Shown piece after piece: positions 1,358 through 37,616 of a stretch of DNA of 38,653 bases. The notes beneath the pieces are model-generated. The model was given only the letters and a program-made list of their open reading frames with translations, was not told the DNA's origin and searched no databases. A program made the position numbers and the translations under genes. Position 1 is the stretch's first letter; each line of letters starts with the position of its first letter. Source of the DNA: Thermotogales bacterium (GTDB lineage: Bacteria; Thermotogota; Thermotogae; Petrotogales; Kosmotogaceae); contig PWXG01000009.1 in the NCBI GenBank assembly GCA_003561215.1, positions 1-38,653 on the forward strand, in the 5' to 3' direction.

Positions 1358-1990
1358 TCACGGTTTGCTTCTTGCCAGGGAAACGAGCGTGACTTCAGAT
1401 GTTCCATTGTCTTTGAGAGTTTTTGCGCACTCCCTGATGGTTGATCCGCTCGTAACAACGTCATCGAATAGGATCACCCTATCCGGGAGCCTGTTGTTTA
1501 CGATTACAAAGCTCCCCCTGACGTTCTCCTTGCGCTCCTCCATCCCCAGAGATGACTGCTGTTGACGCATACCTCTTGTGGTGAGTATTTCGACAACTGA
1601 TACATCAAGCTTCTTGTTCAGACTACTGAGAATCATCCTGTTGGTATCAAACCCCCGCCTTCGTATCGCCTCGGGAGTCGTCGGCACGGGGACTATCGGG
1701 ACTTCAACATCGAGAGACAGTGTTATCATCGTCTTGAAAACGAGTTCAGCAAAATACTTCGAGAGCCTGTGTCTTCCTGAGAACTTGTACTGCTTTATTA
1801 TCTCACTGAACGGGGGGTCGTACCACCAGTAGGAATAGGCCCGGTCTACGTAAGGCAGTTTGTAGTGAAACGTCATGGGACCTCTCATCGAAGACTCGCA
1901 ACTGTCGCAAACAAGCGCCAAAAAGGAGATCTGTTTTGCGCAACCAGCACAGAAATTGGGAAACACCTTCCCCAGTATCAGGTCAACCAT
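1358..1990 (-). CDS. comF: ComF family phosphoribosyltransferase-like protein
   Basis: 210-aa ComF/GntX-type protein. The N-terminus has the two-pair cysteine site of the family (CAGC, then CDSC), expected to bind zinc. YKFSGRHRL and the RRRGFDTN segment are family hallmarks, and VILFDDVVTSGST matches the PRPP-binding loop of type I phosphoribosyltransferases. ComF proteins are needed for uptake of transforming DNA in naturally competent bacteria and are thought to act on incoming single strands with helicases; the enzymatic reaction is unresolved. The start overlaps the end of the upstream helicase gene by 13 bases, so the two are probably translated together. That pairing with a helicase fits a role in DNA uptake or repair, which is inference. 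Confidence 0.88.
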   Translation of the reverse strand: MVDLILGKVFPNFCAGCAKQISFLALVCDSCESSMRGPMTFHYKLPYVDRAYSYWWYDPPFSEIIKQYKFSGRHRLSKYFAELVFKTMITLSLDVEVPIVPVPTTPEAIRRRGFDTNRMILSSLNKKLDVSVVEILTTRGMRQQQSSLGMEERKENVRGSFVIVNNRLPDRVILFDDVVTSGSTIRECAKTLKDNGTSEVTLVSLARSKP

Positions 1991-4467
1991 CCGGTCTTCT
2001 TGAGGTTTCTTAAATTCGTCAGAACCTGTCTGGTGGTTATTCTTTCAACCAACAGGCCTGCAGGAAGCGAATTCAGCAGTTTGACGGAGTAATTCCTTTG
2101 CGGGTCGACGATCCTCTTGTCAAGAACGATGATTACACCGTGATCCTCTCTTGTTCGAATAACTCTTCCTATACCCTGTCTGAACAGGGTGATCATCTTT
2201 GGGTAATAATACTTGTGCAGTCCTTCAACAAAGCTGCGTTCACCGTAATGCCTGATCCTGGCACGGGTGAGAGGCTCATCGGGTCTATCAAAGGGGAGTT
2301 TGAATATGATCAGCAATTTCAGTTTGTCGCCCGGCAGGTCTATTCCTTCCCAGAACGTCCGTGTGCCGAAAATCACTGACTTTTCGTTGGTAACGTGTTC
2401 GGAGAGAATCACGCTTGCACTTTCGAAAGGTCTTTGAACGTGAAGATCAACCCCCTTTAACCTGTTGGATAATCGAGATTCCACTTGCTTCATATCGCTG
2501 TAAGAGGTAAACAAGACCGCAGATCCGCCACCGACAATGTTGATGGCGTTACAGATAAACTCTGCGCCATTGTCGATATACTCCAGGGAGTTCTGAAAGT
2601 ACTCTGGCATATCCTTCAGTAACATCAGTCTGAGCTGGTTACCGAAATCAAAAGATGTACCCAGCTTCAGCGCGTGGAAATCCTCTCCGAGCCCCAGTAT
2701 TCTTCTCGAGTAGTTGAACCCGTCACTCCCTCGACTGAAAACCCACATTGTTGCAGAGATGAATATCTTGATTGGAATTGCCCTCATTACGTCAGATATG
2801 ACAGTGTCATTTCCGACGGGTGCGGAGCACAATGCTCCGTTGCGATTGCTTTCAGACGGAGAAAAGAAGACGATCCTGTTATCGTCTCTAGTCATGACTC
2901 CAGAGGTGTTCTTGATTATTTCGAATACTTGCGATCGGAGAGTGCGAAAAACATCTCTATTTGAGTCTTGAGGGGCTTCGTCGCCATCTCTTGAGCTCTC
3001 ACTAAGCATCTCGTCAAGTTGTACCAACATCGAGGCTTGCGCCCTTAGCAGTTGATCAATTTTCTCTGTAAGAGATCTTGCTTCCTCGCCTAGTGCGCCC
3101 TGGAGGATCATATCTCTTCTTGTATATGAGCTGTGAAGCAAAGATGCTAGCATTTTTGCTGCATGAACGGTTTCTTTGTGGAGCAACGAGATCCGAGATT
3201 TCGCAGATTCTATGAATGTTTCGTCGAAAAGAGCAGCCAGTTGCTCAAGAACCTTTCCGGTGACACTGATAACGCCTTCAGTTATGTCTTTGATATTCCG
3301 GGGAGATATGCTGAATGTGAGGGTGTCTGTAAGAGCCTTTTCAAAGCCATGTGCTTCGTCTATGACCAGGACATCAAAACTGGGCAGCAATACACCATTC
3401 TCTGAATCAGCCTCCGGAGATTTCATCTGGATTTCGCTTGAGAGAAGCGCATGGTTGGTGATCACAATGTCCGATCTTCTGGAGTTTTCTCTGGCCCTAT
3501 AATACGGACAACGACCACGATCACCGCAAGAGCGGGAACCACACTCGAATCTGCTTGCGCTGACACTGCTTCTTGTTTCCTGGGATATCCTGATCCTGTC
3601 CAGATCTCCGTCACGTGTTGAAATCGACCATAGAACGAGCGCAAGCATTTCTTTTGCGTATGGGTTCATCGAGTTGTCCAGAAGTGCGATGTGCGCATGT
3701 CCAAGCAGTTTGTTCGGACAAAGATACCTCTCCCGACCCTTCAGCGAGGTCACTCTTACTTCCTTTAGCTCCGGGAGGTTTCTCATGATCTGAACATCCT
3801 TCTGCATTAATTGATCCTGGAGGGTCCTGGTCCTTGTTGAAATAACAGCCCGTCTCTTCGAAGATACAACATGGTAAGCAACAGGCACAAGGTAGGCAAG
3901 GGTCTTTCCTGTGCCCGTACCGCTTTCGAGAAGAATGCCTTTTTCAAGCGCAATAGATTCAGCTACTTCCAGAGATGTCTGGAACTGTTCCTGTCTGAAC
4001 TCGTACCCGGGATGAATATCTTCTAGAAGGCCGTTCTCGGCAAATACAAGCTTCACAGCTTCCAGAAGATCGATCGCCTTTTCCTCCGACCTCCTTTTCT
4101 TGATATTCTCCAGACCCGAGCAGATGTACTCTTCCCAGGGAACCGATCTTGTTGATGACCCGAGCCCGATCTCGAGAAAACGCGCAATGGCATCATCTTC
4201 ATTGAAAACACTTTTGAGAAGAGGAAGTAAGGTAGTCGGCATGGTAGATAGGACGGAAAGGTAGTGATCGACTCTTTCGGCAACAGAGCCCAAAGAGCTA
4301 GGAAAACAAAGCCTCAAGAACTCCTCGTCAACCAGGCCCGGGGTCCCGCGCAGTCTGGCAAATGTCTCGACGCTCTCACAGAACAAGAGCGCGCTGCTCT
4401 TTCCGAGAAGAGTTATCAGCTCGCTCTTCTGCAGTGACAGCGGCTCTTCTGCACCAACATATGTCAA
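1978..4467 (-). CDS. DinG/XPD-type Fe-S DNA helicase
   Basis: Superfamily 2 helicase, about 829 aa. Walker A GTGTGKT is near residues 183-189 and the DEAH box (VIDEAHG) near 370. Four cysteines between them (about 250, 309, 314, 320) match the XPD/DinG [4Fe-4S] cluster. The C-terminal motifs GTRTFWEGIDLPGD and RQGIGRVIRT fit motifs V and VI. The longer open frame reaches into tRNA-Leu and its terminator, so its first 46 residues cannot be protein. I chose TTG at 4467 because AGGAG lies 7 bases ahead; the adjacent TTG at 4470 or GTG at 4542 are alternatives. About 175 residues precede the helicase core, where many Gram-positive DinG proteins carry a 3'-5' exonuclease; no DEDD catalytic residues are visible here. 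The gene likely acts in repair of unusual DNA structures and is coupled to comF. Confidence 0.85.
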   Translation of the reverse strand: MTYVGAEEPLSLQKSELITLLGKSSALLFCESVETFARLRGTPGLVDEEFLRLCFPSSLGSVAERVDHYLSVLSTMPTTLLPLLKSVFNEDDAIARFLEIGLGSSTRSVPWEEYICSGLENIKKRRSEEKAIDLLEAVKLVFAENGLLEDIHPGYEFRQEQFQTSLEVAESIALEKGILLESGTGTGKTLAYLVPVAYHVVSSKRRAVISTRTRTLQDQLMQKDVQIMRNLPELKEVRVTSLKGRERYLCPNKLLGHAHIALLDNSMNPYAKEMLALVLWSISTRDGDLDRIRISQETRSSVSASRFECGSRSCGDRGRCPYYRARENSRRSDIVITNHALLSSEIQMKSPEADSENGVLLPSFDVLVIDEAHGFEKALTDTLTFSISPRNIKDITEGVISVTGKVLEQLAALFDETFIESAKSRISLLHKETVHAAKMLASLLHSSYTRRDMILQGALGEEARSLTEKIDQLLRAQASMLVQLDEMLSESSRDGDEAPQDSNRDVFRTLRSQVFEIIKNTSGVMTRDDNRIVFFSPSESNRNGALCSAPVGNDTVISDVMRAIPIKIFISATMWVFSRGSDGFNYSRRILGLGEDFHALKLGTSFDFGNQLRLMLLKDMPEYFQNSLEYIDNGAEFICNAINIVGGGSAVLFTSYSDMKQVESRLSNRLKGVDLHVQRPFESASVILSEHVTNEKSVIFGTRTFWEGIDLPGDKLKLLIIFKLPFDRPDEPLTRARIRHYGERSFVEGLHKYYYPKMITLFRQGIGRVIRTREDHGVIIVLDKRIVDPQRNYSVKLLNSLPAGLLVERITTRQVLTNLRNLKKTGWLT

Positions 4468-4545
4468 CAAGATTCTCCTACTGGGTGCCGGTAGACCCCT
4501 GGCAAAACAGATTTCGGGAAGATCCTGCAGAAAACACACCACCCT

Positions 4546-4572
4546 AAAAAAGAAACCGGGGGAAGCCCGGTT
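4546..4572 (-). terminator. Rho-independent terminator of tRNA-Leu
   Basis: On the minus strand AACCGGG pairs with CCCGGTT around a short CTTCC loop and is followed by TTCTTTTTT. It begins 4 bases after the encoded CCA of tRNA-Leu and lies upstream of the helicase gene, so it should separate the tRNA transcript from dinG-comF. Confidence 0.85.
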
Positions 4573-4575
4573 CTC

Positions 4576-4664
4576 TGGTGCCGAGGGCGGGACTTGAACC
4601 CGCACGAACTACAACGTTCACATGGCCCTCAACCATGCGTGTCTGCCAATTCCACCACCTCGGC
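4576..4664 (-). tRNA. tRNA-Leu (anticodon GAG)
   Basis: 89-nt class II tRNA with a long variable arm. Acceptor GCCGAGG pairs with CCTCGGC, then discriminator A and an encoded CCA. Anticodon stem CATGG/CCATG encloses TTGAGGG, giving GAG (reads CTC/CTT). The variable arm includes AACG/CGTT. T arm is GCGGG-TTCAAGT-CCCGC. Its own promoter and terminator flank it. Confidence 0.96.
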
Positions 4665-4676
4665 GACTCAAAGAGA

Positions 4677-4705
4677 ATTATAGCCCGGTGTTAGATCTTT
4701 GTCAA
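4677..4705 (-). promoter_or_regulatory. Consensus sigma-70 promoter of tRNA-Leu
   Basis: On the minus strand TTGACA (plus coordinates 4700-4705) and TATAAT (4677-4682) are perfect hexamers separated by 17 bases. The tRNA begins 12 bases downstream of the -10. Spacing and layout are the same as at the tRNA-Gln promoter. Confidence 0.9.
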
Positions 4706-4725
4706 GGATGCAAAAGCTCGATGGA

Positions 4726-4944
4726 TCAGGGAAGAAGCGTGTAACCCTTTTCTGCGAAAAGCCTTCTTATCGTCTCTCTATCAACGAGGGCGTTCTCGTA
4801 CTCTATCTCAACGACGCCAGCGTCGATGATCGGTTCGACCTTGACTATCCCGCTGATATCACGGAGAGTTTCCCTGATTGTCTCAGCATCCGCATTACTG
4901 GTTAACTCTTTCACCTGGAAAATCCTGAGTACTCTCGAAATCAC
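4726..4944 (-). CDS. Small HMA-fold-like protein lacking the metal-binding CxxC
   Basis: 72-aa protein whose pattern (VLRIFQV, then DISGIVKVEPI, VVEIEYEN and LFAEKGYTL) follows the beta-alpha-beta-beta-alpha-beta layout of heavy-metal-associated domains. Where the family has MxCxxC, this sequence has LTSNADAE, so both metal-binding cysteines are missing and copper or zinc transfer is unlikely. GTG start at 4944 overlaps the fmt stop by one base (TAGTG), with GGGGGG just upstream. It is the last gene of the surE-def-fmt operon, 61 bases before the tRNA-Leu promoter. Function unknown; a structural or protein-binding role is possible. Confidence 0.7.
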   Translation of the reverse strand: MISRVLRIFQVKELTSNADAETIRETLRDISGIVKVEPIIDAGVVEIEYENALVDRETIRRLFAEKGYTLLP

Positions 4945-5876
4945 TATCCCCCCAATCTCGAACCATCTTCTATAAGCCTTCCAGATCGTGCTTCCCAGGG
5001 CGACATGATCCTCTTTCCCGGAAGCTGGACTCTCTCTATGGTTAGCGCTCCTTCTTCACAAGAAACGAGCATGCCTTCTTTGGTGATCACGGCAATTGTT
5101 CCAGGATATGCATTTGTTCTGTTATTGCTTGTCATCGCTCCAAACAGCTTCAGCCTCTTTTGACCAAGATGCGTGTATGCACCAGGAGCAGGATCAAAAG
5201 CTCTTATCGTGTTACATACTGTTCGCGCTTCGGCGAAGTGTGTGATTCTGAGATCATCTTCGGCGATTTTCGGAGCGAGTGTAGCTTGAGACTCGTCTTG
5301 TGGTCTAAGGTCCACTCGGCCAGATTCAAGTGATTCCATGAACTCCAGGAGGACTTCTACACCGAGATTGCAGAGGCGATGCGAGAGGGAACCAAAAGTC
5401 TCAAACTCTCCTATAGAGAGCTCTCTTAAGATTGCAACAGGGCCGCTGTCCATACCTTTGTCCATCTCGAATATCGTGATACCAGTTTCTTTCTCTCCGT
5501 TCATCAAGGCACGCTGAATGGGAGCCGCTCCCCTGAATTTCGGCAACAACGAAGCATGAACGTTGTAACAGCCAAGAGGTGGCAACTTCAGGGCCCTTGC
5601 CTTAAGAAGCTTTCCAAAAGCCACAGTAATTATCACGTCAGGCTCGAGAGATTCGAGAAGAGTTATGCCCTCATCATTGTTGATACTGCGGGGCCGGAAA
5701 ACAGGTAATCCCAACAATTTTGCGGTCTTCGTAACAGGAGTAGGCTCGACGACTCTTCCCCTCCCACGGGGTCTATCTTTCTGCGAGAAGACACCCACCA
5801 CATCATAATGACCGGAAACAAGCGCTTTCAAGTGTTCCGCGGCAAAGAAAGGTGTTCCCATGAACACGACACGCAT
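4944..5876 (-). CDS. fmt: Methionyl-tRNA formyltransferase
   Basis: 310 aa, the usual length. Fmt transfers a formyl group from 10-formyl-THF to initiator Met-tRNA in the cytoplasm. The N-terminus VVFMGTPFFA and the motif NVHASLLPKFRGAAPI are diagnostic. Catalytic Asn105, His107 and Asp143 (in KGMDSGP) line up with the N-H-D triad of the family. A C-terminal tRNA-binding domain follows from about residue 205. The ATG overlaps the def stop by one base (TGATG), with AAGGGA 7 bases upstream. Placement directly after def, the enzyme that removes the same formyl group, is a common bacterial arrangement. Confidence 0.97.
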   Translation of the reverse strand: MRVVFMGTPFFAAEHLKALVSGHYDVVGVFSQKDRPRGRGRVVEPTPVTKTAKLLGLPVFRPRSINNDEGITLLESLEPDVIITVAFGKLLKARALKLPPLGCYNVHASLLPKFRGAAPIQRALMNGEKETGITIFEMDKGMDSGPVAILRELSIGEFETFGSLSHRLCNLGVEVLLEFMESLESGRVDLRPQDESQATLAPKIAEDDLRITHFAEARTVCNTIRAFDPAPGAYTHLGQKRLKLFGAMTSNNRTNAYPGTIAVITKEGMLVSCEEGALTIERVQLPGKRIMSPWEARSGRLIEDGSRLGG

Positions 5877-10077: not shown

Positions 10078-12561
10078 TCAGTCCGAGAACGGAAAGGAAA
10101 TCTCAAAATAGGGAAGTGCACCGTCGGAGCCAAGATTCACGCCCAGTTGAAAACGAAGTCTTGCCCTTGAGTAGAGATATATCGTCTCGTACTTATAGAC
10201 AAGGAGTCTCCACATAGCTGATTCCGCAAATAGAAGAGCCGCATCAATTCCGTAACCCTCTGCAGAGAAATGGATAATCTGACCATAGTTTATGTCACGT
10301 CTAGACAACGGGTATTCAAACCCAACCGAGAATCCTGCAAGTATGGAGGCTTCGGACTGAAATCCCTTAAACCTTATGGGTACGGAGGAAGGATCTCCAA
10401 CAGCAAAACGTGTTACACCCGCTGCGTTGAGAGTGATGTTATCATTTCTCCATAACGCTTTTAGCTCAAGCATTCCGTCAACAGTGTTTGCTGTGAGTGT
10501 TTGTGTATCCCTGAGGCTGACCGTAGCACTTGCCCTTGACAACCCTCCCAGAAGAAGAGCGGAGTCTGAAAGACTTCCAGAAAGAGACAGTGAAGCCTTG
10601 AAAGGATACTGAATTGTCGCTGCCCAACCGGCAGAGATCTTCCGTGTTATCCCATAGTCTCTTGCCAGGGTGAGCTCTGCAAACGAACCAGATTGTGCTG
10701 CAAAGAAGGAGACTTCCAGATCAACGATTGAAAGCCTTCTCGAAGATATTTCGAGTCCGAGAAAGGGTTTGCTCAGAGACCCGTCCACTCCGAAGGAAAG
10801 CATAGTCCTTGTAGTGCCAAGCAGATCTTCAAGCACAGTACCGACTCCGAGTCTTTCCGGAATTGTGTATACATTCTGCCAGTCCACGAAGAGCGAATAT
10901 GGACGCGCATCGTAGATGATTCTGTCATCAGAACGGATGCACTCAATCAGCTCTCCCTTGAGTTCCATCACAGACAATATTTCCAGTGCAGGTATAACTC
11001 TGAAACCACATAAGATCGAAACAGCATAGTATGTGTCATTCTGGAGTTTTGGCCACAAACACAGTCCCGGCAACGACGAAGACGCAACAATGCTGTCCTT
11101 AGATGGGTTGAACAAGCCCAGGTATGATTCGTTCCCCCCGACTACTGAGACTGCTAACTGTTCTCTTGACCAGCTTCCCAGATTCAAGTCGAAACCGAAA
11201 TCAAGCAACCTGGTCTGTTGAAGACTGGCATCATAAATGAGTAGAAGGCTTCTACTTTCAGTGAAGATCTTCGCGGCTACATACCTGCCTGATGGGGAAA
11301 CGCTCAATTGTCCCATCCATGAAAAGGGACAAACAGAATCATAAAGCCTTACCCTTCTTCCTGTTCTGAGCGAGTAGCTCTCGAGGTAGTATCTCCCGCT
11401 ATCGTTTACAAGCATTGCAAGACGGTCTTTGCCAAGGAATTGCGCAGAGACTACTCGTGACTGTATAAGGCTCAGATCCTGTCCGTCTTCCGTTGTGTAG
11501 AGCCTGCCCTGCAAGCACCCCTCGACTTCTTCAAGAAGAGTGATAGCTGTCGTTCCATCGACGAGAGAGAAATCAAGGATTTCTTCTTCCGTGGAGAAGA
11601 GAGTATTTCCTTCCGAAATTAGTCTTGTTACACCGGTCAGAGTATTAAGCACAGAATAGTGCGACTCGCCGTGGAAAACTTTTACGGCCTGCACCATATC
11701 CGCTTCGAAAAGCTCTCCGGCAATCGGCGAAGCAGCGCAGTGTTCTGCGGGCATCAGTGTTCGTTGATGCCTAACGAAAGCTTCCCTTAAAGTCTGATAA
11801 TCTCTTCCGAAGACTTCGAGGAAGGCCCTGTCTATACCTAGAAGCATGTTTAAGCCTGATCCCGAATAATGGATCAGTTCAAGAATCTTCTCTTCGCCAA
11901 AGCTACTGGCAAGGTAATCCATGAAGGTTATTGCGAATATCGTCCGGGGGAGTGTTCCGCCTGGTACGAATCCAGATATCAAGCTTTCGTTGGAGAAAGG
12001 ATCTGAAGAACGGAGATGGAATGCCAGCATAGATCGGGAGTTAATGTCATCTGGAACATCAATGACCCTTCTCAATCCCAGGTAGGAAAGCCCGTCCACA
12101 AACCATACAGGTAGGAATAGATTCAGTGCCGAGTATTCCTTGAGGCTGCGCACAACGCGATTGGTGTCACTGAGAATGAGGTCCAGCACAAACGTTCTGG
12201 CGACTTCAAAGGCGATTCTGCTTCTGATCCATGATCCAGAAAACCAGTTAGGATTGTGGTCCTGGGTCACACCTACGTAGATCTTGTATGGACTGAGCAT
12301 GCGGACGATCCCGACATCGTTGCAACCTGTCAGGACGAAAACCATCGCCTGCTTGAGTTTGGTCCTGTACTCCTCTGAGAAGATGTCGAGGACTCCTTCA
12401 ACGAATGAGACAATTTCGACAACCAGATCTTCTACGCCTTTCTGATAGACAAATACAGCCCTATCTGTCTCATGGACCACCCAGTCTGTGCTCCCCTGGC
12501 TTGCAAGACCTGACATGGCAAAAGAAACGATTAGCAGAAACAGAAGAAAGAGTCTCTTCAT
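10078..12561 (-). CDS. Secreted envelope protein: degenerate gluzincin-like region, propeller-like middle, possible beta-barrel C-terminus
   Basis: 827 aa. A signal peptide is clear (MKRLFLLFLLIVSFAMSGLA). Residues about 25-240 resemble the 'peptidase MA-like' gluzincins often joined to WD40-like propellers: the helix AFEVARTFV (117-125) lies where HExxH is expected and LPVWFVDGLSYL (151-162) matches the WFxEGxA segment. Both histidines are replaced (Phe118, Arg122), so catalysis is unlikely. Residues about 290-590 have repeated four-strand blocks suggestive of a TolB-like propeller, and about 600-827 alternate polar and hydrophobic strands as in an outer-membrane barrel. ATG 12561 is chosen for GAGGTG 6 bases upstream. 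It heads the operon that ends with the GGDEF gene. Domain assignments beyond the signal peptide are inference. Confidence 0.75.
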   Translation of the reverse strand: MKRLFLLFLLIVSFAMSGLASQGSTDWVVHETDRAVFVYQKGVEDLVVEIVSFVEGVLDIFSEEYRTKLKQAMVFVLTGCNDVGIVRMLSPYKIYVGVTQDHNPNWFSGSWIRSRIAFEVARTFVLDLILSDTNRVVRSLKEYSALNLFLPVWFVDGLSYLGLRRVIDVPDDINSRSMLAFHLRSSDPFSNESLISGFVPGGTLPRTIFAITFMDYLASSFGEEKILELIHYSGSGLNMLLGIDRAFLEVFGRDYQTLREAFVRHQRTLMPAEHCAASPIAGELFEADMVQAVKVFHGESHYSVLNTLTGVTRLISEGNTLFSTEEEILDFSLVDGTTAITLLEEVEGCLQGRLYTTEDGQDLSLIQSRVVSAQFLGKDRLAMLVNDSGRYYLESYSLRTGRRVRLYDSVCPFSWMGQLSVSPSGRYVAAKIFTESRSLLLIYDASLQQTRLLDFGFDLNLGSWSREQLAVSVVGGNESYLGLFNPSKDSIVASSSLPGLCLWPKLQNDTYYAVSILCGFRVIPALEILSVMELKGELIECIRSDDRIIYDARPYSLFVDWQNVYTIPERLGVGTVLEDLLGTTRTMLSFGVDGSLSKPFLGLEISSRRLSIVDLEVSFFAAQSGSFAELTLARDYGITRKISAGWAATIQYPFKASLSLSGSLSDSALLLGGLSRASATVSLRDTQTLTANTVDGMLELKALWRNDNITLNAAGVTRFAVGDPSSVPIRFKGFQSEASILAGFSVGFEYPLSRRDINYGQIIHFSAEGYGIDAALLFAESAMWRLLVYKYETIYLYSRARLRFQLGVNLGSDGALPYFEISFPFSD

Positions 12562-12578
12562 CTGCGACACCTCGCTCA

Positions 12579-12584
12579 ATTATA
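12579..12584 (-). promoter_or_regulatory. Candidate -10 element of the secreted-protein operon
   Basis: A perfect TATAAT reads on the minus strand 17 bases upstream of ATG 12561, in the 105-base gap between divergent genes. No recognisable -35 lies 16-18 bases upstream, so support is weak. If used, the leader would be about 11 nucleotides and still include GAGGTG. Confidence 0.35.
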
Positions 12585-29072: not shown

Positions 29073-29184
29073 AGAATCACCCCTGGTCTGATTGTACCAC
29101 TCGTTGACTCAAACAATTGTGTAGGCCCTGGGGGTCATAATATTAGAATGCAGAAGAAAACTAATCGTTAAGGAGATGCTTCGT

Positions 29185-31014
29185 ATGAAGAGATTGAGGT
29201 ACTGTCTGTTGTACACTATTGCATCGATTATTATGGCAAGCACTGTTCTGTTCTCAAATAGCCTGTCACTGATCGGAACGATCGGACCTGCCCCTTCTGG
29301 TGTTTTTCTTTGTACTCATTCGGAACACCTTATGGTGGGTGGTTGGGACGGAGTGGTGCGATTGCTTGATTCAGTAACCCTCGAAGAGAGGAAAGCATAC
29401 ATGATCTCTGACTCGGCGATTGTGACAATCCTCTTCTCAGAGAAAGGTTGCTGTTACATGATATCTGAGAACGGACTCATAAAGAAGCTTTGCCCTGATC
29501 ATGAGCACGGCATCAGCAAGCTGTCCGAGCTGGAAAGTCGAATAAGATCGGCGGCTCTTCATGAGAAGCAATCACTGCTGATTGTCGGAACAGCGACAGG
29601 CGAGATAATGGCGCTCGACACGCATACTGGAAAGACAGTATGGGAGAAGCCCTTACACGACAGGGGCATCCATTCTCTAAAGATCGCTGTCGAAAAAGGT
29701 TGGGGTCTTTCTCTTTCATACGATGGAGAGCTTATGCTATGGGGCGTTGATGACGGTCATGTCATTCAGAGGATGAATGCCGAAGCTTTCGCACCTGGGC
29801 TGGTCTTGATTCATGAAAGAGGGACTTTTGCCCATATAAAAGGTGAGGACACAATCGTATTGCGTCATATGCCTGCTGGAGATCTCTTTGCTGAGATTCA
29901 GGCAGATTCCATTGTGCGAGTCATCAGAGCTTCCAAAGACGAGACGTTACTGATTTTGGGGCTGGAAAACGGCTTTGTTGAGTACTGGGATTTGGACCGT
30001 CTCGAAAGGTTATTCTCTTTCAAAGCTCATGATGACCGGGTGACTTCAGTTGAATATGACCACGCAAGGGGAATGCTCATCACCGGTTCTAGTGACAACT
30101 CTGTGAAGCTCTGGGAAAGCTTTTCCGATAAACTGCTTGCCTGTAACCGTGGGCATATGTGGCATATTTCTTCTCTTGACTACAGTAACGAGCTGGGAAT
30201 ACTGGTTTCGGGTTCCTTCGATAACACTGTCTGCGTATGGAAGCTGAAAGATCGCGCAGAAATAAGTCTTCTCGAGCACGGGAACTGGGCCGTCACATCC
30301 CTGGCTATTGACTCCACGGGAATGAAGGTCTTCTCAGGCGACGCGCGGGGATTAATAAGAGTCTGGGATCTTAGGGGTGGATTTGTTGTCAACGAGTTTA
30401 AGGGACATACGGACAGAGTACAGGCGCTCGCTCTTTCCAGAGAGGAAGAGCTTCTCTTTTCGTCTTCGTGGGATGGCACTATTCGTATTTGGGATCTGAA
30501 AGAGGGAGAAGAGATAATGCTCCTCGAATACCATGATGGTTCCGTAAACACCCTTGATGTTTCTCCTGACGGAGAACTGCTGGTCTCAGGAGGTTCTGAC
30601 GGGAAGATAATCGTATGGAATATCGCAGATCAGGAGATCGAATTCGTTCATTTGAGAGAAAGCATTCGGGTACATTGTGTAAGCTTCAACAGTGTCGGCA
30701 ACATACTGGCAGCAGGCTATTCTGATGGCACTGTCAGTGTTTTCGCTGTGTCCGGAAACATGCTGGTTATCAAAGAAAAGGCTCACGATAGCTGGGTGAA
30801 TTGTGTCTTGTTTTCGCATGAAGATGAACTCCTTGTCACAGGCTCTCAGGATGGAAGTATAACGGTCTGGAGTCCCGATTATCTATCTCTGCTTTCCTCG
30901 CAGAAAGGACACATCGGTGGAGTCAAAGCGATTGCAATCGCTTCTTCCGAAGGACTTATCGTAAGTGGTGGAGGCTGGCTTGACAGTACAATAAAGATCT
31001 GGAGCATCGAATAG
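29185..31014 (+). CDS. Exported WD40-repeat protein, 14 repeats (two propellers)
   Basis: 609 aa. A hydrophobic N-terminus (CLLYTIASIIMASTVLF) suggests a signal peptide or membrane anchor. The rest can be divided by eye into 14 repeats of about 40-42 residues. The first six are diverged; repeats 7-11, 13 and 14 carry clear GH...(V/I)xWD-type ends such as TGSSDNSVKLWE, SSSWDGTIRIWDL and SGGSDGKIIVWNI. Fourteen blades fit two seven-bladed propellers and fill the whole protein, so no other domain is present. Such propellers are scaffolds for protein complexes. ATG 29185 is chosen because AAGGAG lies 9 bases upstream. The partner is unknown. Its 3' end is 13 bases from the convergent RND pump. 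Confidence 0.85.
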   Translation: MKRLRYCLLYTIASIIMASTVLFSNSLSLIGTIGPAPSGVFLCTHSEHLMVGGWDGVVRLLDSVTLEERKAYMISDSAIVTILFSEKGCCYMISENGLIKKLCPDHEHGISKLSELESRIRSAALHEKQSLLIVGTATGEIMALDTHTGKTVWEKPLHDRGIHSLKIAVEKGWGLSLSYDGELMLWGVDDGHVIQRMNAEAFAPGLVLIHERGTFAHIKGEDTIVLRHMPAGDLFAEIQADSIVRVIRASKDETLLILGLENGFVEYWDLDRLERLFSFKAHDDRVTSVEYDHARGMLITGSSDNSVKLWESFSDKLLACNRGHMWHISSLDYSNELGILVSGSFDNTVCVWKLKDRAEISLLEHGNWAVTSLAIDSTGMKVFSGDARGLIRVWDLRGGFVVNEFKGHTDRVQALALSREEELLFSSSWDGTIRIWDLKEGEEIMLLEYHDGSVNTLDVSPDGELLVSGGSDGKIIVWNIADQEIEFVHLRESIRVHCVSFNSVGNILAAGYSDGTVSVFAVSGNMLVIKEKAHDSWVNCVLFSHEDELLVTGSQDGSITVWSPDYLSLLSSQKGHIGGVKAIAIASSEGLIVSGGGWLDSTIKIWSIE

Positions 31015-31027
31015 CGCCTAGCAGGGC

Positions 31028-34000
31028 TTACTGATCTTGTTGAACGGCTTTCTTGCTTGATAGTCTGTCTACAAGGTCGTAGACAATGGGCATGAAGAAC
31101 AGTGTAAACACCATCCCGACAACTAGTCCCCCGATTATCATGATAGCGAGAGACCTGTTTATTTCCGCTCCTTCAGCCCTGGAAAACGCCATCGGTACAA
31201 GCGCCATGGCAGTGGTCAATGTCGTCATTATTATCGGACGGGAGCGTATTTCAGCCCCTTCAATGATGGCCTGTCGCTTGGGAAGCCCCTGTTGGAAACG
31301 CAAATAGTTTATGTTTGTGACCATAACAATGCCATTGTTGACTGTGAGGCCAGCGACAGTGAGCATACCGACTAATGCACTGATGTCGATCTCCAGTCCC
31401 AGAAGAAAAGTTACCAGTGTTACGCCGACCAGTGACATTGGAATGGTGAAGAAGATTATCAGCGGATACACAAAGGACTCGAACTGGGCCCCGATTATCA
31501 GATACATCAGCACTAAACCGATTATGAGCGCGAGAACGAACTGATCAACCGCTTCTCGCATGAGATATGCCTGTCCTCCGATAGACTTTCTCATGGAGCT
31601 GATCTCCTCGTCTTCTTCAAGAAGCTCGACGATCTCTCTTTCCACATCACTCAATGCCCTACCGACAACATTGGCATCCACGTGGGATACCCTTTGTCCC
31701 CCCCTATGGAATATAGTCATGGGGCTCTCGACGACTTTAATGGATGATATCATTCCCATATAAACATCATCTCCTATCATTGAAGGCACCTTGAGCCTCT
31801 CAATCTTCTCGGAAGACAACTCATCTATTGAGCGATAGATTTTTATCGGCATCGTCACACCGTCAACAAAGATGTTGCCGGCTTCGAGGCCGATTGTGTA
31901 TGGCTGCAGAGTACCTAAAGCCTGCATGAAGTAAACCCCGGAGAGCAAAGCCTTGCTTCTGTCGATATCTATCTGGTATGCGAAATGCTTCTGGTCAAAT
32001 GAAGATCCGAGATCCTGAAGGCCATCAACTCCGGAGATCAGGGACTTGACTCTTTCAGTGCTGCTGACCAGTTGATCCAGGTCCTGGTCAAAGAGAGTGA
32101 TTACCATGTCCTTCCCAAACAATGCCTCCAGCTCGAGTCCCTGGTAACTCAAATCGATACGCGCGTTCGTTTCATCGAGTATTGCGCTGAGAGCATCGCG
32201 GATCTCAGCCGCGATCTGTTCAGACGATCTGTCGCGTTGTACAGGCGGGACAAGAGATATCTGTACGCTACCCATGTTCTCTGCACCGCCAAGTAAAGCG
32301 CTGATTAAGTCGCCTGTCTGTCCGCTGGTAGTATAGATCTGGGTGATCTCGTATTTGTTTCTGTTTTCGAGCAGATACTCTTCTGCCCGAGCAATAGCGT
32401 CCGCCGTCACATGATACGGTGTATTGTCAGGCAGAGTTACGTTGACAGTTACAAGGCTATTATCAATCTTGGGGATGAAATCCAGTCCCTTCAGCAGAAG
32501 ACCAGTAAGCCCGAGCGTAAAGACCAGCAAGAAGACTACTACAGTAGCAAGCTTCCTTCTGAGCAACAAATCAAGCGATCTTGAATACCACTGTCCTGTG
32601 CGCACAGATCGTTTCTTCTTGTGACTTATGAACTGTGTCAGGCCGGGGATAATGGTGAGTGCAACAAGCAAAGAACCAGCCAGAGTGAAGGCAAGAGCAA
32701 GGGCGAAGAACTTGAATATCTGGGCTGCAAACCCCGTTATGAAGGCAAAGGGAACAAACATTGCAAGAGTGGTGGCAGTTGATGCGATTATTGCTCCCGC
32801 AACCTCACTGCCACCTTTTCCAGCGGCTTCGGAGAATTCCTTGCCTTTCTCCAGGTGTCTGAATATCGCTTCCAGTACAACGATGCTGTTGTCGACAAGC
32901 ATACCCACGCCCATGGTGAGTCCGCCAACTGTCATCAAGTCCAGTCCGAGTCTGCTGAAGAACATGAATACAAGTGCCATAGTCAGGGATAAGGGAATTG
33001 ATGCAGCGATGATCAAAGTCGCCCCGAGATTTCTCAGAAAAACAAAGATCACTATAGTTGCGACAATCGCCCCCATAAGCAGGTTCCTGAACAAACCGCT
33101 TATAGCGCTTTCGGTAAAAACACTTGTGTCTGTTATCGTGTAGACAGTAGCTCCGGAGTGGAGTTCTTCCCAATGTGAAAGAGCCTCCCTTATTCTTCGA
33201 GCAACGTCAACAGTGTTTGCTCCACCTTGTCTGAAGACAACAAGGACCGAGGATTCTTTCCCGTTAACCCTCACAGTTCCCCTGAGTGGTACATCAGCGA
33301 CTGATACAGATGCAATTTGATTCAACCTGACAGGTATTAGCACATCGGGGAGGTCAAGATCAAACCCTTCCTGAAGACCCATGGAAGAGGTATTCATGAG
33401 TTCGCCCATCCCTCTGAAGCCTATGACGGCACTTGAGAGCTCCTTTATGTTCTTGAAGTTAGTGTTCACAGAAAGTGTATAGTATTTGCCTTCTTCTTCA
33501 AACCTGCCAAAAGGGTAACGGGCACCCGGTTCAAAGACCATACGAAGAACGTCGAAGGGGATATCAAATTCCTCGAGCTTGCCTTCCTGAATGTCCACCC
33601 TGATTTCCCTGTCCGGTATGCCCATTCTGTCCACATTGGCAACACCCTCGACTTGTGAAACGGTCATTCTGAGGCTGTTTGACAAATCCACCAGTTCTTC
33701 TGCAGAAGGCGCTGAGATTCCGATTATATAGACGGGAAGGAGTGCAGGGTTCAGCTCAAACACCATCGGGTTTGCCCCTTCGGGCAACTCTCCGGAAAAC
33801 GCATCAACAGCTTCACGAATTCTCAGCATGGCAAGGGATATATCTGTGTCCCAGTCGAATTCTATCTCAATTACTGAAAAACCGTCCATTGAGCGTGACG
33901 AGATCTCCTTTATCCCTCCCACAAGCATAATCGCGCCTTCGAGGGTGTTTGTAACATTGGCTTCTACTTCTTCCGGCCCTGCACCGATATATGGTGTTAT

Positions 34001-34147
34001 GACAACGGCAAAAGGCACGTCCATCATCGGAAGCAGATCCACAGGAAGTTCGCGCCAGGCGAGTACACCGAGGAAGATAACAACACTCATCAGAAGGATT
34101 ACGGTAACTGGCCGCTTCGATATTGAAGACAGAATCTTATGCCACAT
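31028..34147 (-). CDS. RND-family efflux transporter (AcrB/SwrC-like)
   Basis: 1039 aa with the duplicated RND layout: TM1 (VTVILLMSVVIFLGVLAW), a large external loop, TM2-6, then TM7 and a second loop before TM8-12. Typical motifs are YIGAGPEEVEANVT, GMLVDNSIVVLEAIFRHLE and VNNGIVMVTN. Only one Asp stands in the TM4 motif (VDN rather than VDD), and the TM10 Lys of AcrB is Asn, as in SwrC-like relatives. It should export drugs, lipids or peptides using the ion gradient. No membrane-fusion adaptor or outer-membrane channel gene is next to it. ATG 34147 is chosen for AGGAG 8 bases upstream. Confidence 0.93.
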   Translation of the reverse strand: MWHKILSSISKRPVTVILLMSVVIFLGVLAWRELPVDLLPMMDVPFAVVITPYIGAGPEEVEANVTNTLEGAIMLVGGIKEISSRSMDGFSVIEIEFDWDTDISLAMLRIREAVDAFSGELPEGANPMVFELNPALLPVYIIGISAPSAEELVDLSNSLRMTVSQVEGVANVDRMGIPDREIRVDIQEGKLEEFDIPFDVLRMVFEPGARYPFGRFEEEGKYYTLSVNTNFKNIKELSSAVIGFRGMGELMNTSSMGLQEGFDLDLPDVLIPVRLNQIASVSVADVPLRGTVRVNGKESSVLVVFRQGGANTVDVARRIREALSHWEELHSGATVYTITDTSVFTESAISGLFRNLLMGAIVATIVIFVFLRNLGATLIIAASIPLSLTMALVFMFFSRLGLDLMTVGGLTMGVGMLVDNSIVVLEAIFRHLEKGKEFSEAAGKGGSEVAGAIIASTATTLAMFVPFAFITGFAAQIFKFFALALAFTLAGSLLVALTIIPGLTQFISHKKKRSVRTGQWYSRSLDLLLRRKLATVVVFLLVFTLGLTGLLLKGLDFIPKIDNSLVTVNVTLPDNTPYHVTADAIARAEEYLLENRNKYEITQIYTTSGQTGDLISALLGGAENMGSVQISLVPPVQRDRSSEQIAAEIRDALSAILDETNARIDLSYQGLELEALFGKDMVITLFDQDLDQLVSSTERVKSLISGVDGLQDLGSSFDQKHFAYQIDIDRSKALLSGVYFMQALGTLQPYTIGLEAGNIFVDGVTMPIKIYRSIDELSSEKIERLKVPSMIGDDVYMGMISSIKVVESPMTIFHRGGQRVSHVDANVVGRALSDVEREIVELLEEDEEISSMRKSIGGQAYLMREAVDQFVLALIIGLVLMYLIIGAQFESFVYPLIIFFTIPMSLVGVTLVTFLLGLEIDISALVGMLTVAGLTVNNGIVMVTNINYLRFQQGLPKRQAIIEGAEIRSRPIIMTTLTTAMALVPMAFSRAEGAEINRSLAIMIIGGLVVGMVFTLFFMPIVYDLVDRLSSKKAVQQDQ

Positions 34148-34209
34148 TCTTCTCTCTCCTAACAAGGGGATGAAAGAGCTGTTGCATTAGATAAAGCATA
34201 ACACATGAA

Positions 34210-34340: not shown

Positions 34341-34934
34341 GTGATAAATGGTCTGAGGACTCTTCTTCGAAAGACTACCGGCGTCCCCATGAAGCTGGCT
34401 AAGGCTGCATCAGAGACCCTGAGCAATGCTGCAAGTGATTATCCTGTTATTACGCTGGCAGTCATCTTCGCACTTGTCTTTCTTCTGACGATTCAGATCA
34501 GGAATATCAGGTTTGAGACTGATATAACTAATCTGGCCGACGAAGCATCGGAAGCAGCGAGGGAGATCGAACGGGCAGCTCGTGACTTCTCTGTTGGTGA
34601 TCCTCTAAGGCTTGTCTTGATAGGAGATGCCACCGATCCGTCTGTTCTATGGCGCGCCTCAGAAATAGCGGCCGATCTTCGCCGGATACAGAATGTCGCC
34701 AGGGTTTCCACCCCTTTTGATGCCATGTATCTTTCTTTGGAGGGACTCTCTGTTGTTTCCAGGTTTGTGATGCAAGATTTTCCCAGAACCGAAGAAGCCG
34801 TGTTGGGTTTCTTCAGCAATCTCTCGAAAAGCTACACTGCAGGACATATGATAAGCGAGTCAGCGGATGCCATCCTTTTCGACCTATTCGTGCGTGGAGG
34901 AGCGGGATCAAGAGGGAAAACCGCGATTTCTTAA
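34341..34934 (+). pseudogene. RND-superfamily (MMPL/COG1033-type) exporter, N-terminal part, ended by in-frame TAA
   Basis: 197 codons from GTG 34341, with AAGGTGG 7 bases upstream. It holds TM1 (VITLAVIFALVFLLTIQI) and part of the first external domain (RNIRFETDITNLADE, then FSVGDPLRLVLIGDA). It stops at TAA 34932-34934 in the middle of that domain. The same frame then stays open without any shift to 36671, and the joined product would be about 776 aa, a normal size for this family. One base change would account for the stop. It is most simply the 5' half of a broken gene; a sequencing error or stop readthrough are alternatives. Confidence 0.78.
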
Positions 34935-36671
34935 ATAGAGCAGACTCTGGAGGAGAAATGGGATTCCGGAAACTATTTCCTTGTTGGAGAGGTTTTTCTC
35001 GGATACTCGGTGGACAGAACGGTCCTCAGAGATGTGTATCTCCTTTTTCCGATTTCAATTATCCTTTTCATTTTAGTGGTGATGTTCAGCTTTCGTTCAT
35101 TAACTGCGTTGCTGGTTATCGGATCTACTGTGATTGTTACAGTTACCAGCACACTGGGGCTCATGGCCTGGAGAGGGACAACTCTTACCATAGTGAGTGC
35201 TACACTTCCAGTACTTCTTGTTGCGCTTGGAAGTGCAGATGGTATTCATGTGTTTTGTCGATACAAAGAAACACTTAAGACCGAAGCCAACAAGAAAACA
35301 GCCCTGAAAAAGGCTATGCGCTCGCTGGTTGCTCCGATATTTATGACCTCCGCGACTACAGCAGCGGGATTCGCTGCTCTTATGACGTCATCAGTTATAC
35401 CTGTGCGTGATTTTGGTCTATACAGTGTATTCGGTATTCTCCTGGCCATGGTTTACTCGCTGTCAGGCATACCGGCTATCCTTGCTATTGTGCCGAAACC
35501 ACGAGAAGCATTAAGTGGGTCAAGAACCGGCCTTTCATTGGCAAGAGTTCTCGAATTCGTTGCAGTTGCCGGACAGAAGCACTGGAAAGCGGTTCTGGTG
35601 GTGGGGCTTTCCAGTGTAGTTGTCTCTGCGCTCGGCATTACACAGCTGCAGTTCGAGTCAAATCTTGCAAGGTATTTCAGGAGAGGAAGCGACGTTTCAC
35701 TCGGAATTCGGGAATATGAGAAACGATTCGGTGGATCTTCAACGCTAATGGTAATTGTGGATTCCGGAAACGAGGGCGGCACTCTCCAACCGGATTTCAT
35801 GGAGATGCTAGGAGAAATGCACGCGCGAGTTGAGGGTTATCCCCTGCTCTCTAACACCAGTTCATTCCTTAGTTTTGCAGAAAGCATCACCCCTCATGGA
35901 ACGCAAGGCACCATAGCTGCGCTGTTACTGAAAAACCTTGGAACCATAGGCTTGCAAGGATATATTAGCAGAGACGGGATGAGAAAAGCTGCCATTCAAA
36001 CATACATCTACAGTGCTGAAGCCGCTGACGCATCTAGAACGCTCTTGCAGCTTGAAAAAGAACTCAAGGGGGTTGCCCATCCTGGCGTTGATGTGGTCCT
36101 GGCCGGTACTCCGAAGGTCGTAGAGTTTCACATGAAAGAATTCGCATCAAGTCAGACAAGAAGCATCTTGATTTCCGGCGCAGCTGTATGGCTGATTGTC
36201 TCGTTCCTTTTTGGCTCAATCGGAATCGGAACACTCGCGATGATTCCTCTGTGTCTTGCCGTTCTTATCAATTTCGGGATGATGGGGATAGCGGGAATTC
36301 CACTTGACGCTGCCACAATCCTGATTGCGAGTATCTCGATAGGAGTTGGTGCTGACTACTCGATTCATCTCCTGGAAAAGATTACCGAGGATGAGAAGCG
36401 CTTGAGTGGAAGTTTGGAGGCCTTCGTGAGTTCGATCAGGAGCGTAGGAGAGGCGATTGTGATAAATACTATGACATTGTTCGCAGGATTTGCAGTCTTT
36501 GCCTTTTCTTCTTTTCTCACAGTCGCCTACTTTGGTGTTCTTACTGCCATGACTCTTGCTGTGAGCTGCTGTACGGCGCTGATCATCATCCCTGCGTTTC
36601 TTGCAATTCGGATCAACAGACACGCATCTAGCTATAGAGAGCCGATCCGAGTGAAAGACGTCAAATGGTGA
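34935..36671 (+). pseudogene. RND-superfamily (MMPL/COG1033-type) exporter, C-terminal part after the in-frame stop
   Basis: Continues in the same frame as the N-terminal part. The first 25 codons (IEQTLEEKWDSGNYFLVGE and onward) match the rest of the first external domain, then TM2-6 (LFPISIILFILVVMF onward, with GSADGIHVFCRYKE), TM7 (WKAVLVVGLSSVVVSALGI), the second external domain and TM8-12 (SISIGVGADYSIHLLE). The only in-frame starts are internal, such as GTG 35010 just before TM2, with no good ribosome site. The fragment alone would lack TM1 and half a domain, so independent function is doubtful. Substrate of the intact exporter is unknown; relatives move lipids or hopanoid-like molecules. 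Confidence 0.78.
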
Positions 36672-36731: not shown

Positions 36732-37616
36732 GTGATTGCAGTTTGCGGAAATGTCAATGTTGATATTTCGGCCTTCATCGAATCCTCAGAGAACCGTGAA
36801 GACAACCGGATTAAGAGGCTTATCACCGGTCTTGGCGGTACTGCGGCAAATACTGCAGTTCAGCTGGCAAGAATGGGTGAAAGAGTTGTTCTGTACTGCT
36901 CAGTCGGCGACGATGTTCTGGCAGGTTTTGTTCGGCAGAAGCTTCTTGAAGAGAATGTTAGGTCATTCGAGCTGGTTAACCTTGGTGCATCAACGGGACT
37001 ATGTTTCGTTAAGATCTCTGAGAACGGAGAAAGACAGTTATTCACGCACAGAGGAGCCAACGACCTTATCAAAGCACAGGATATTGACAAAAACGCATCG
37101 ATTCTTTACTTTGCAGGTATCCGCCCGCTTGACCTCAAGGAGTTTTGCGAGATGTCAGATTATGGCCGAACGGTGGTTTATTCACCTGGCGGAATTGTAT
37201 CGTTCGAGAACACCGGGGAGCTTGCAGAAATCTCCAGCATGGTAGACCATCTGATAGTTAACGAGAGTGAATATGAGCAGATAAGGCAGGAGGACAAGAT
37301 CTCGTCGAGATTCACGGTAGTCACACTCGGAAAAGAAGGCGCGAAAATATCAGAGACGAATGTGAAGAAGGCATCTTACTTTGTTCCTGTGATCGATACC
37401 ACAGGAGCAGGGGATGCCTTCTCCGCGGGTTATCTGTTTGGAGTCCATCACTGTCTTGCCATTGATGACTGTCTCGTACTCGGCAACATCATGGGAGCCC
37501 TTGCAGTTTCTGGAGAAGGTTCTCAGGGCCCGCTGTCTCTACACGATATAAAAAGGTTCCTTCGGGAACGAGAGCCCGTATTATTCAGCAGGATCAGGTG
37601 CTTCTTCGATCAGTAG
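36732..37616 (+). CDS. PfkB-family (ribokinase-like) carbohydrate kinase
   Basis: 294 aa. The N-terminal strand VCGNVNVDI and [17 protein letters not shown] form the sugar-binding part. The C-terminal signature [14 protein letters not shown] (222-235) carries the anion hole and catalytic base Asp228. Substrate could be ribose, a hexose, a deoxygluconate or a nucleoside; sequence alone does not decide. GTG start at 36732 lies 8 bases after GGGTGAT. Its 3' end overlaps the convergent rubrerythrin gene by 7 bases. Confidence 0.9.

Follow-up and report, generated by a model that had tools for sequence, protein, structure and literature searches.

A single in-frame stop codon probably marks a young pseudogene of an RND/MMPL-type exporter in Kosmotogaceae

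Is a transporter gene that carries one stop codon in an otherwise open frame a dying gene, an error in the assembled sequence, or a gene that is still translated, in full or in pieces? This question is raised by a locus in a member of the Kosmotogaceae (Thermotogota), of which a 38,653-nucleotide stretch of DNA (the window) was analysed. The frame of an RND/MMPL-type transporter comprises 776 codons (34341-36671, + strand) and is broken by one in-frame TAA at 34932-34934. Reading from the GTG at 34341, a putative start that was the choice of the ORF lister, 197 codons precede the TAA, and past it the identical frame stays open for 578 codons as far as the TGA at 36669-36671. The features of the locus are given below, where the sister genome G001 is the only other genome of the window's genus in the comparison set.

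31028-34165, - strand: HAE1-like RND permease, the divergent neighbour; uninterrupted, 79% identical in G001, synteny anchor.
34341-34934, + strand: N-terminal fragment of the RND/MMPL-type transporter; 197 aa from a GTG start, covering TM1 and the larger part of the first extracytoplasmic domain.
34932-34934, + strand: the in-frame TAA; no stop at that column in any of the four open orthologues.
34935-36671, + strand: the frame continued, 578 aa from TM2 to the C-terminus; no other stop or shift of frame, PF03176 at 94.5 bits.
34958-35278, + strand: ORF from an out-of-frame ATG behind an SD-like GGAGG; 106 aa, probably a chance ORF.
35010-35012, + strand: GTG, the first in-frame ATG, GTG or TTG after the stop; would give 553 aa from just before TM2, with a weakly placed SD-like match.
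36732-37616, + strand: PfkB-type (ribokinase-like) kinase, the downstream neighbour; uninterrupted, 53% identical in G001, synteny anchor.

Elsewhere in the window, a 612-aa protein (29176-31014, + strand) has strong WD40 repeats (PF00400, E 7.5e-62) and many matches to beta-propeller profiles with eukaryotic names, and an 833-aa ORF (10078-12579, - strand) has no Pfam match at 1e-5. A tRNA-Leu(GAG) at 4576-4664 (- strand) overlaps the start of a mechanical ORF (1978-4605, - strand), so the true start of that ORF is probably further inside.

The original prediction had described an RND-superfamily exporter whose frame is open on both sides of the TAA, with the same external domain continuing past the stop without a shift. 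Both points were borne out by the ORF reading and by a multiple alignment, in which homology crosses the TAA without a shift and the flanking residues align free of gaps with four orthologues. The stop replaces a single column. The alignment, which had been proposed as a way to find the replaced residue, has T (G016), E (G009), G (G013) and E (G011) at that column, and a decayed copy in G004 has G. The N-terminal fragment is 38-46% identical to the four open orthologues, and the 578 residues after the stop are 45-49% identical to them (E down to 4.5e-163); therefore, the stop lies inside a homologous frame far beyond chance. In read-through numbering, hydrophobic stretches lie at about 29-58 and 227-277, and the stop is in the first large extracytoplasmic domain between them. 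No second stop or frame change was found in the 2.3 kb of the frame. No long homopolymer spans the site, where a base has been substituted, with no insertion or deletion. In agreement with the prediction that one base change suffices as explanation, the damage can be put down to a single base, with nothing else wrong in the frame.

Downstream of the stop, the sequence matches PF03176 (MMPL) above the gathering cut-off of 20.5 bits, with weaker matches to the sterol-sensing and Patched domains. The best NCBIfam models were TIGR00921 (HAE3) and HpnN, both under their curated cut-offs (195.8 bits against 351.9, and 137.5 against 751.85, respectively). The part before the stop matched TIGR00921 weakly (21.6 bits, E 4.6e-05) and gave no Pfam match at E 0.001. 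The two parts were scored apart, and since the TIGR00921 score is under the curated cut-off, the transporter was not filed as HAE3. The top-ranked solved relatives are structures of HpnN-type or RND transporters (6wu0, 5khn). The family plan of RND/MMPL transporters has 12 TM segments, and acidic residues in the TM4 and TM10 regions form their proton relay. In the window frame, Asp 300 (TM4 region, read-through numbering) aligns with Asp in the four orthologues, and Asp 672 (TM10 region) with Asp in the three that cover this position. No second close copy that might be the intact gene was found in the same genome, where the other seven matches are 21-34% identical.

We examined the distribution of the gene among 16 other genomes of the family, counting as no match anything outside E <= 1e-40 for the long part and E <= 1e-5 for the short part. 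Four have an open orthologue, one a decayed copy (G004), one a relic (G001), and ten have no match. The open frames are full length in G016 (Thermotogales bacterium Thermo_02, L085), G009 and G013 (Kosmotogaceae bacterium UBA1373, L084); in G011 there are two open pieces at contig ends, which were taken as one gene. The G004 copy (L081, G004:C60, ~3253-5702) has seven stretches that match the G011 piece at 75-86%, with in-frame stops and changes of frame among them; it decayed independently. Across the phylum, 5 of 103 searched genomes match at E <= 1e-60, all of them in the same family and the window's own genome included. More distant RND paralogues occur in many of the 16 genomes. For one of these, in G003 (C1:1764698-1766318), the match came in two pieces, and five TAA codons lie within one of them; the locus may be another broken gene, or a stretch matched in the wrong frame.

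In the sister genome G001, the HAE1-like and PfkB neighbours stand in identical order and on the same strands, with 530 bases between the match ends, compared with ~2.6 kb in the window. Between them (L082, G001:C81, ~80713-80966) lies a relic that matches residues 5-69; the frame changes near residue 70, and the match continues in another frame to ~90. Nucleotide homology to the relic covers 34435-34604 of the window (score 76, compared with 38 for the best of 200 shuffles), and the 3' part was not detectable at the G001 locus (score 21; shuffle mean 21.2, maximum 39). Over 65 codons, the window and the relic differ at 30, 19 and 46 sites in codon positions 1, 2 and 3 (46%, 29% and 71%). The corresponding values for control genes are 39%, 26% and 68% (pfkB), 17%, 7% and 59% (HAE1) and 10%, 4% and 55% (Lon), so that the relic is nearest to pfkB among the three, with positions 1 and 2 less constrained than in HAE1 and Lon. 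The excess at third positions suggests that the gene was coding in both lineages after their split, for a good part of the time since, and was lost later in G001; 65 codons allow no firmer statement. Since positions 1 and 2 are less constrained than in HAE1 and Lon, the coding past of the relic may be shorter than the pfkB comparison suggests. In G003, which belongs to another genus, the same two neighbours are divergent with 119 bases between match ends and the transporter has no match at our thresholds; either a gain in genus g1 or a loss in G003 may account for this.

The age of the stop was bounded from the lesions that a neutral copy would have gathered. If the window copy is neutral, its freedom from a further stop corresponds to at most ~0.044 neutral substitutions per site, and the bound falls to 0.010-0.016 substitutions per site assuming indels at 5-10% of the substitution rate. 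Since further lesions are absent, the inactivation appears recent, with at most about 0.01-0.04 neutral substitutions per site since then. Long-standing neutral decay of the window copy was rejected on the same ground. Divergence was compared as a distance ratio against the g4 orthologues, on the basis of three open orthologues; the fourth, G011, was left out because a contig end truncates it. The ratio was 3.57 for the downstream part (34935-36668), compared with 1.99 for the upstream part, 2.26 for HAE1 and 2.43 for pfkB. Drift after the stop is excluded as the cause of this faster divergence, because the age bound is too short. The ratio may reflect constraint that was relaxed or altered in the genus before the stop arose, particularly strong constraint in g4, or saturation (the distances are above 1). 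With the same three orthologues, the transporter keeps 291 of 505 invariant columns and HAE1 keeps 368 of 588, the two reference sets differing in divergence.

Together, these results make it likely that the window copy encoded a dispensable RND/MMPL-type exporter and has recently become a nonsense pseudogene. On these comparisons, the gene is repeatedly decaying or lost in Kosmotogaceae, and a young pseudogene is therefore the simplest reading of the window copy. It is also the best fit because all that is left at this place in the sister genome is a broken relic, and because the cousin copy in G004 was independently wrecked. Of the three options that the original prediction had named, the young pseudogene thus fits best, a base-call error stays a candidate, and recoding found no support. 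The frame is broken where orthologues are open and the gene is lost or broken in close relatives, as expected of a nonsense pseudogene. Further lesions have not accumulated in the 2.3 kb, which is compatible with a recent event only. Translation would yield only 197 residues, a stub that comprises TM1 and the greater part of the first extracytoplasmic domain. About eleven remaining membrane segments and the two proton-relay aspartates would not be made, so no pump would form, and the gene would be heading for deletion, as apparently happened in the sister genome. Against a pseudogene, there is no second lesion and the case rests on one base, both aspartates and the remaining frame are intact, and the downstream part diverges relatively faster than two control genes.

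The main rival is that the real gene is intact and that the TAA stems from a consensus or base-call error, or from a variant of a minority strain that became fixed in the assembled sequence. The assembly is fragmented (278 contigs, 93% complete), and one base explains the whole defect in a frame that is otherwise in order. Errors of this kind are not common in this genome, however, as none of its 76 ABC-ATPase domain matches contains an internal stop. The site is a substitution outside any long homopolymer, and the gene is independently broken both in the sister (G001) and in the cousin (G004). We consider an error unlikely, but it is the alternative that survives best.

Could the exporter instead be made in two pieces? 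A stub and a second polypeptide begun at GTG 35010 might assemble into a pump, and this codon is preceded by an SD-like match of -6.5 kcal/mol. That match lies at the far edge of the scanned stretch, at least 13 bases from the codon; in other ORFs of the window, the strongest sites are 4-8 bases away from the start. The SD-like AAGGTGG 5' of GTG 34341 (-7.5 kcal/mol) is better placed. The strong SD-like GGAGG (34949-34953) belongs to the ATG at 34958, 23 bases past the stop and in a different frame, as the original prediction had claimed in denying it a rescuing role, and looks like a coincidence within codons for LEEKW. Promoter-like sites in the region (4, with 2.7 expected by chance) and terminator-like sites (2, with 2.2 expected) are near chance level. 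Moreover, no such split is seen in the four open orthologues, and the fragments would need separate synthesis and insertion. Split translation is therefore very improbable.

Slightly less probable still is programmed readthrough or recoding of the UAA to give some full-length exporter, an idea that draws on the intact frame and key residues past the stop. A conserved stop in relatives would be expected, but the column holds a sense codon in all four open orthologues, and the sister lacks the region. There was also no sign of a decoder tRNA or of TAA reassignment. A UAA-reading (TTA) anticodon occurs in none of the 34 tRNA genes found, in a tRNA set and an assembly that are incomplete. The lack of internal stops in the ABC-ATPase matches argues against general reassignment, and TAA terminates 4 of the 23 listed ORFs of the window. 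An idea that spans both of these routes is as far-fetched as split translation itself: either both pieces are expressed as a split RND pump or the UAA is read through at a low level, and the stop would serve as a dosage valve while the lineage is losing the exporter.

Three further candidates were rejected. A naturally split gene, which the original prediction had named as the finding that would count against it, fails since the four open orthologues cross the point in one frame. Frameshift rescue fails because the downstream frame is the upstream frame and a net shift is needless, and rescue from ATG 34958 fails because this codon is out of frame.

As a probable young pseudogene, the locus is part of a small, clean case of repeated exporter loss, with one single-stop copy, one relic in the same genus, one wrecked copy in a cousin genus and four open orthologues. 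An annotation should not count the stub and the downstream ORF as two genes. Only if readthrough of the stop were demonstrated would the locus have consequences beyond this.

Like MMPL (PF03176), HAE3-like (TIGR00921) and HpnN-type transporters, the window gene has a two-fold repeated membrane domain. Unlike them, it is interrupted by a stop, and its larger piece scores under the TIGR00921 and HpnN cut-offs. The open orthologues (UBA1373, Thermo_02, G009 and G011) are 44-46% identical to the window copy after the stop in the multiple alignment, but their frame is uninterrupted and free of a stop at the column. In UBA1373 the orthologue also has other neighbours than in the window: an MFS gene, and one that lacks any Pfam match at 1e-5. 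Ordinary bacterial nonsense pseudogenes have a single stop in an otherwise open frame and decayed copies in relatives. The window copy is like them in both its single stop and its decayed relatives, and differs only in the particular gene.
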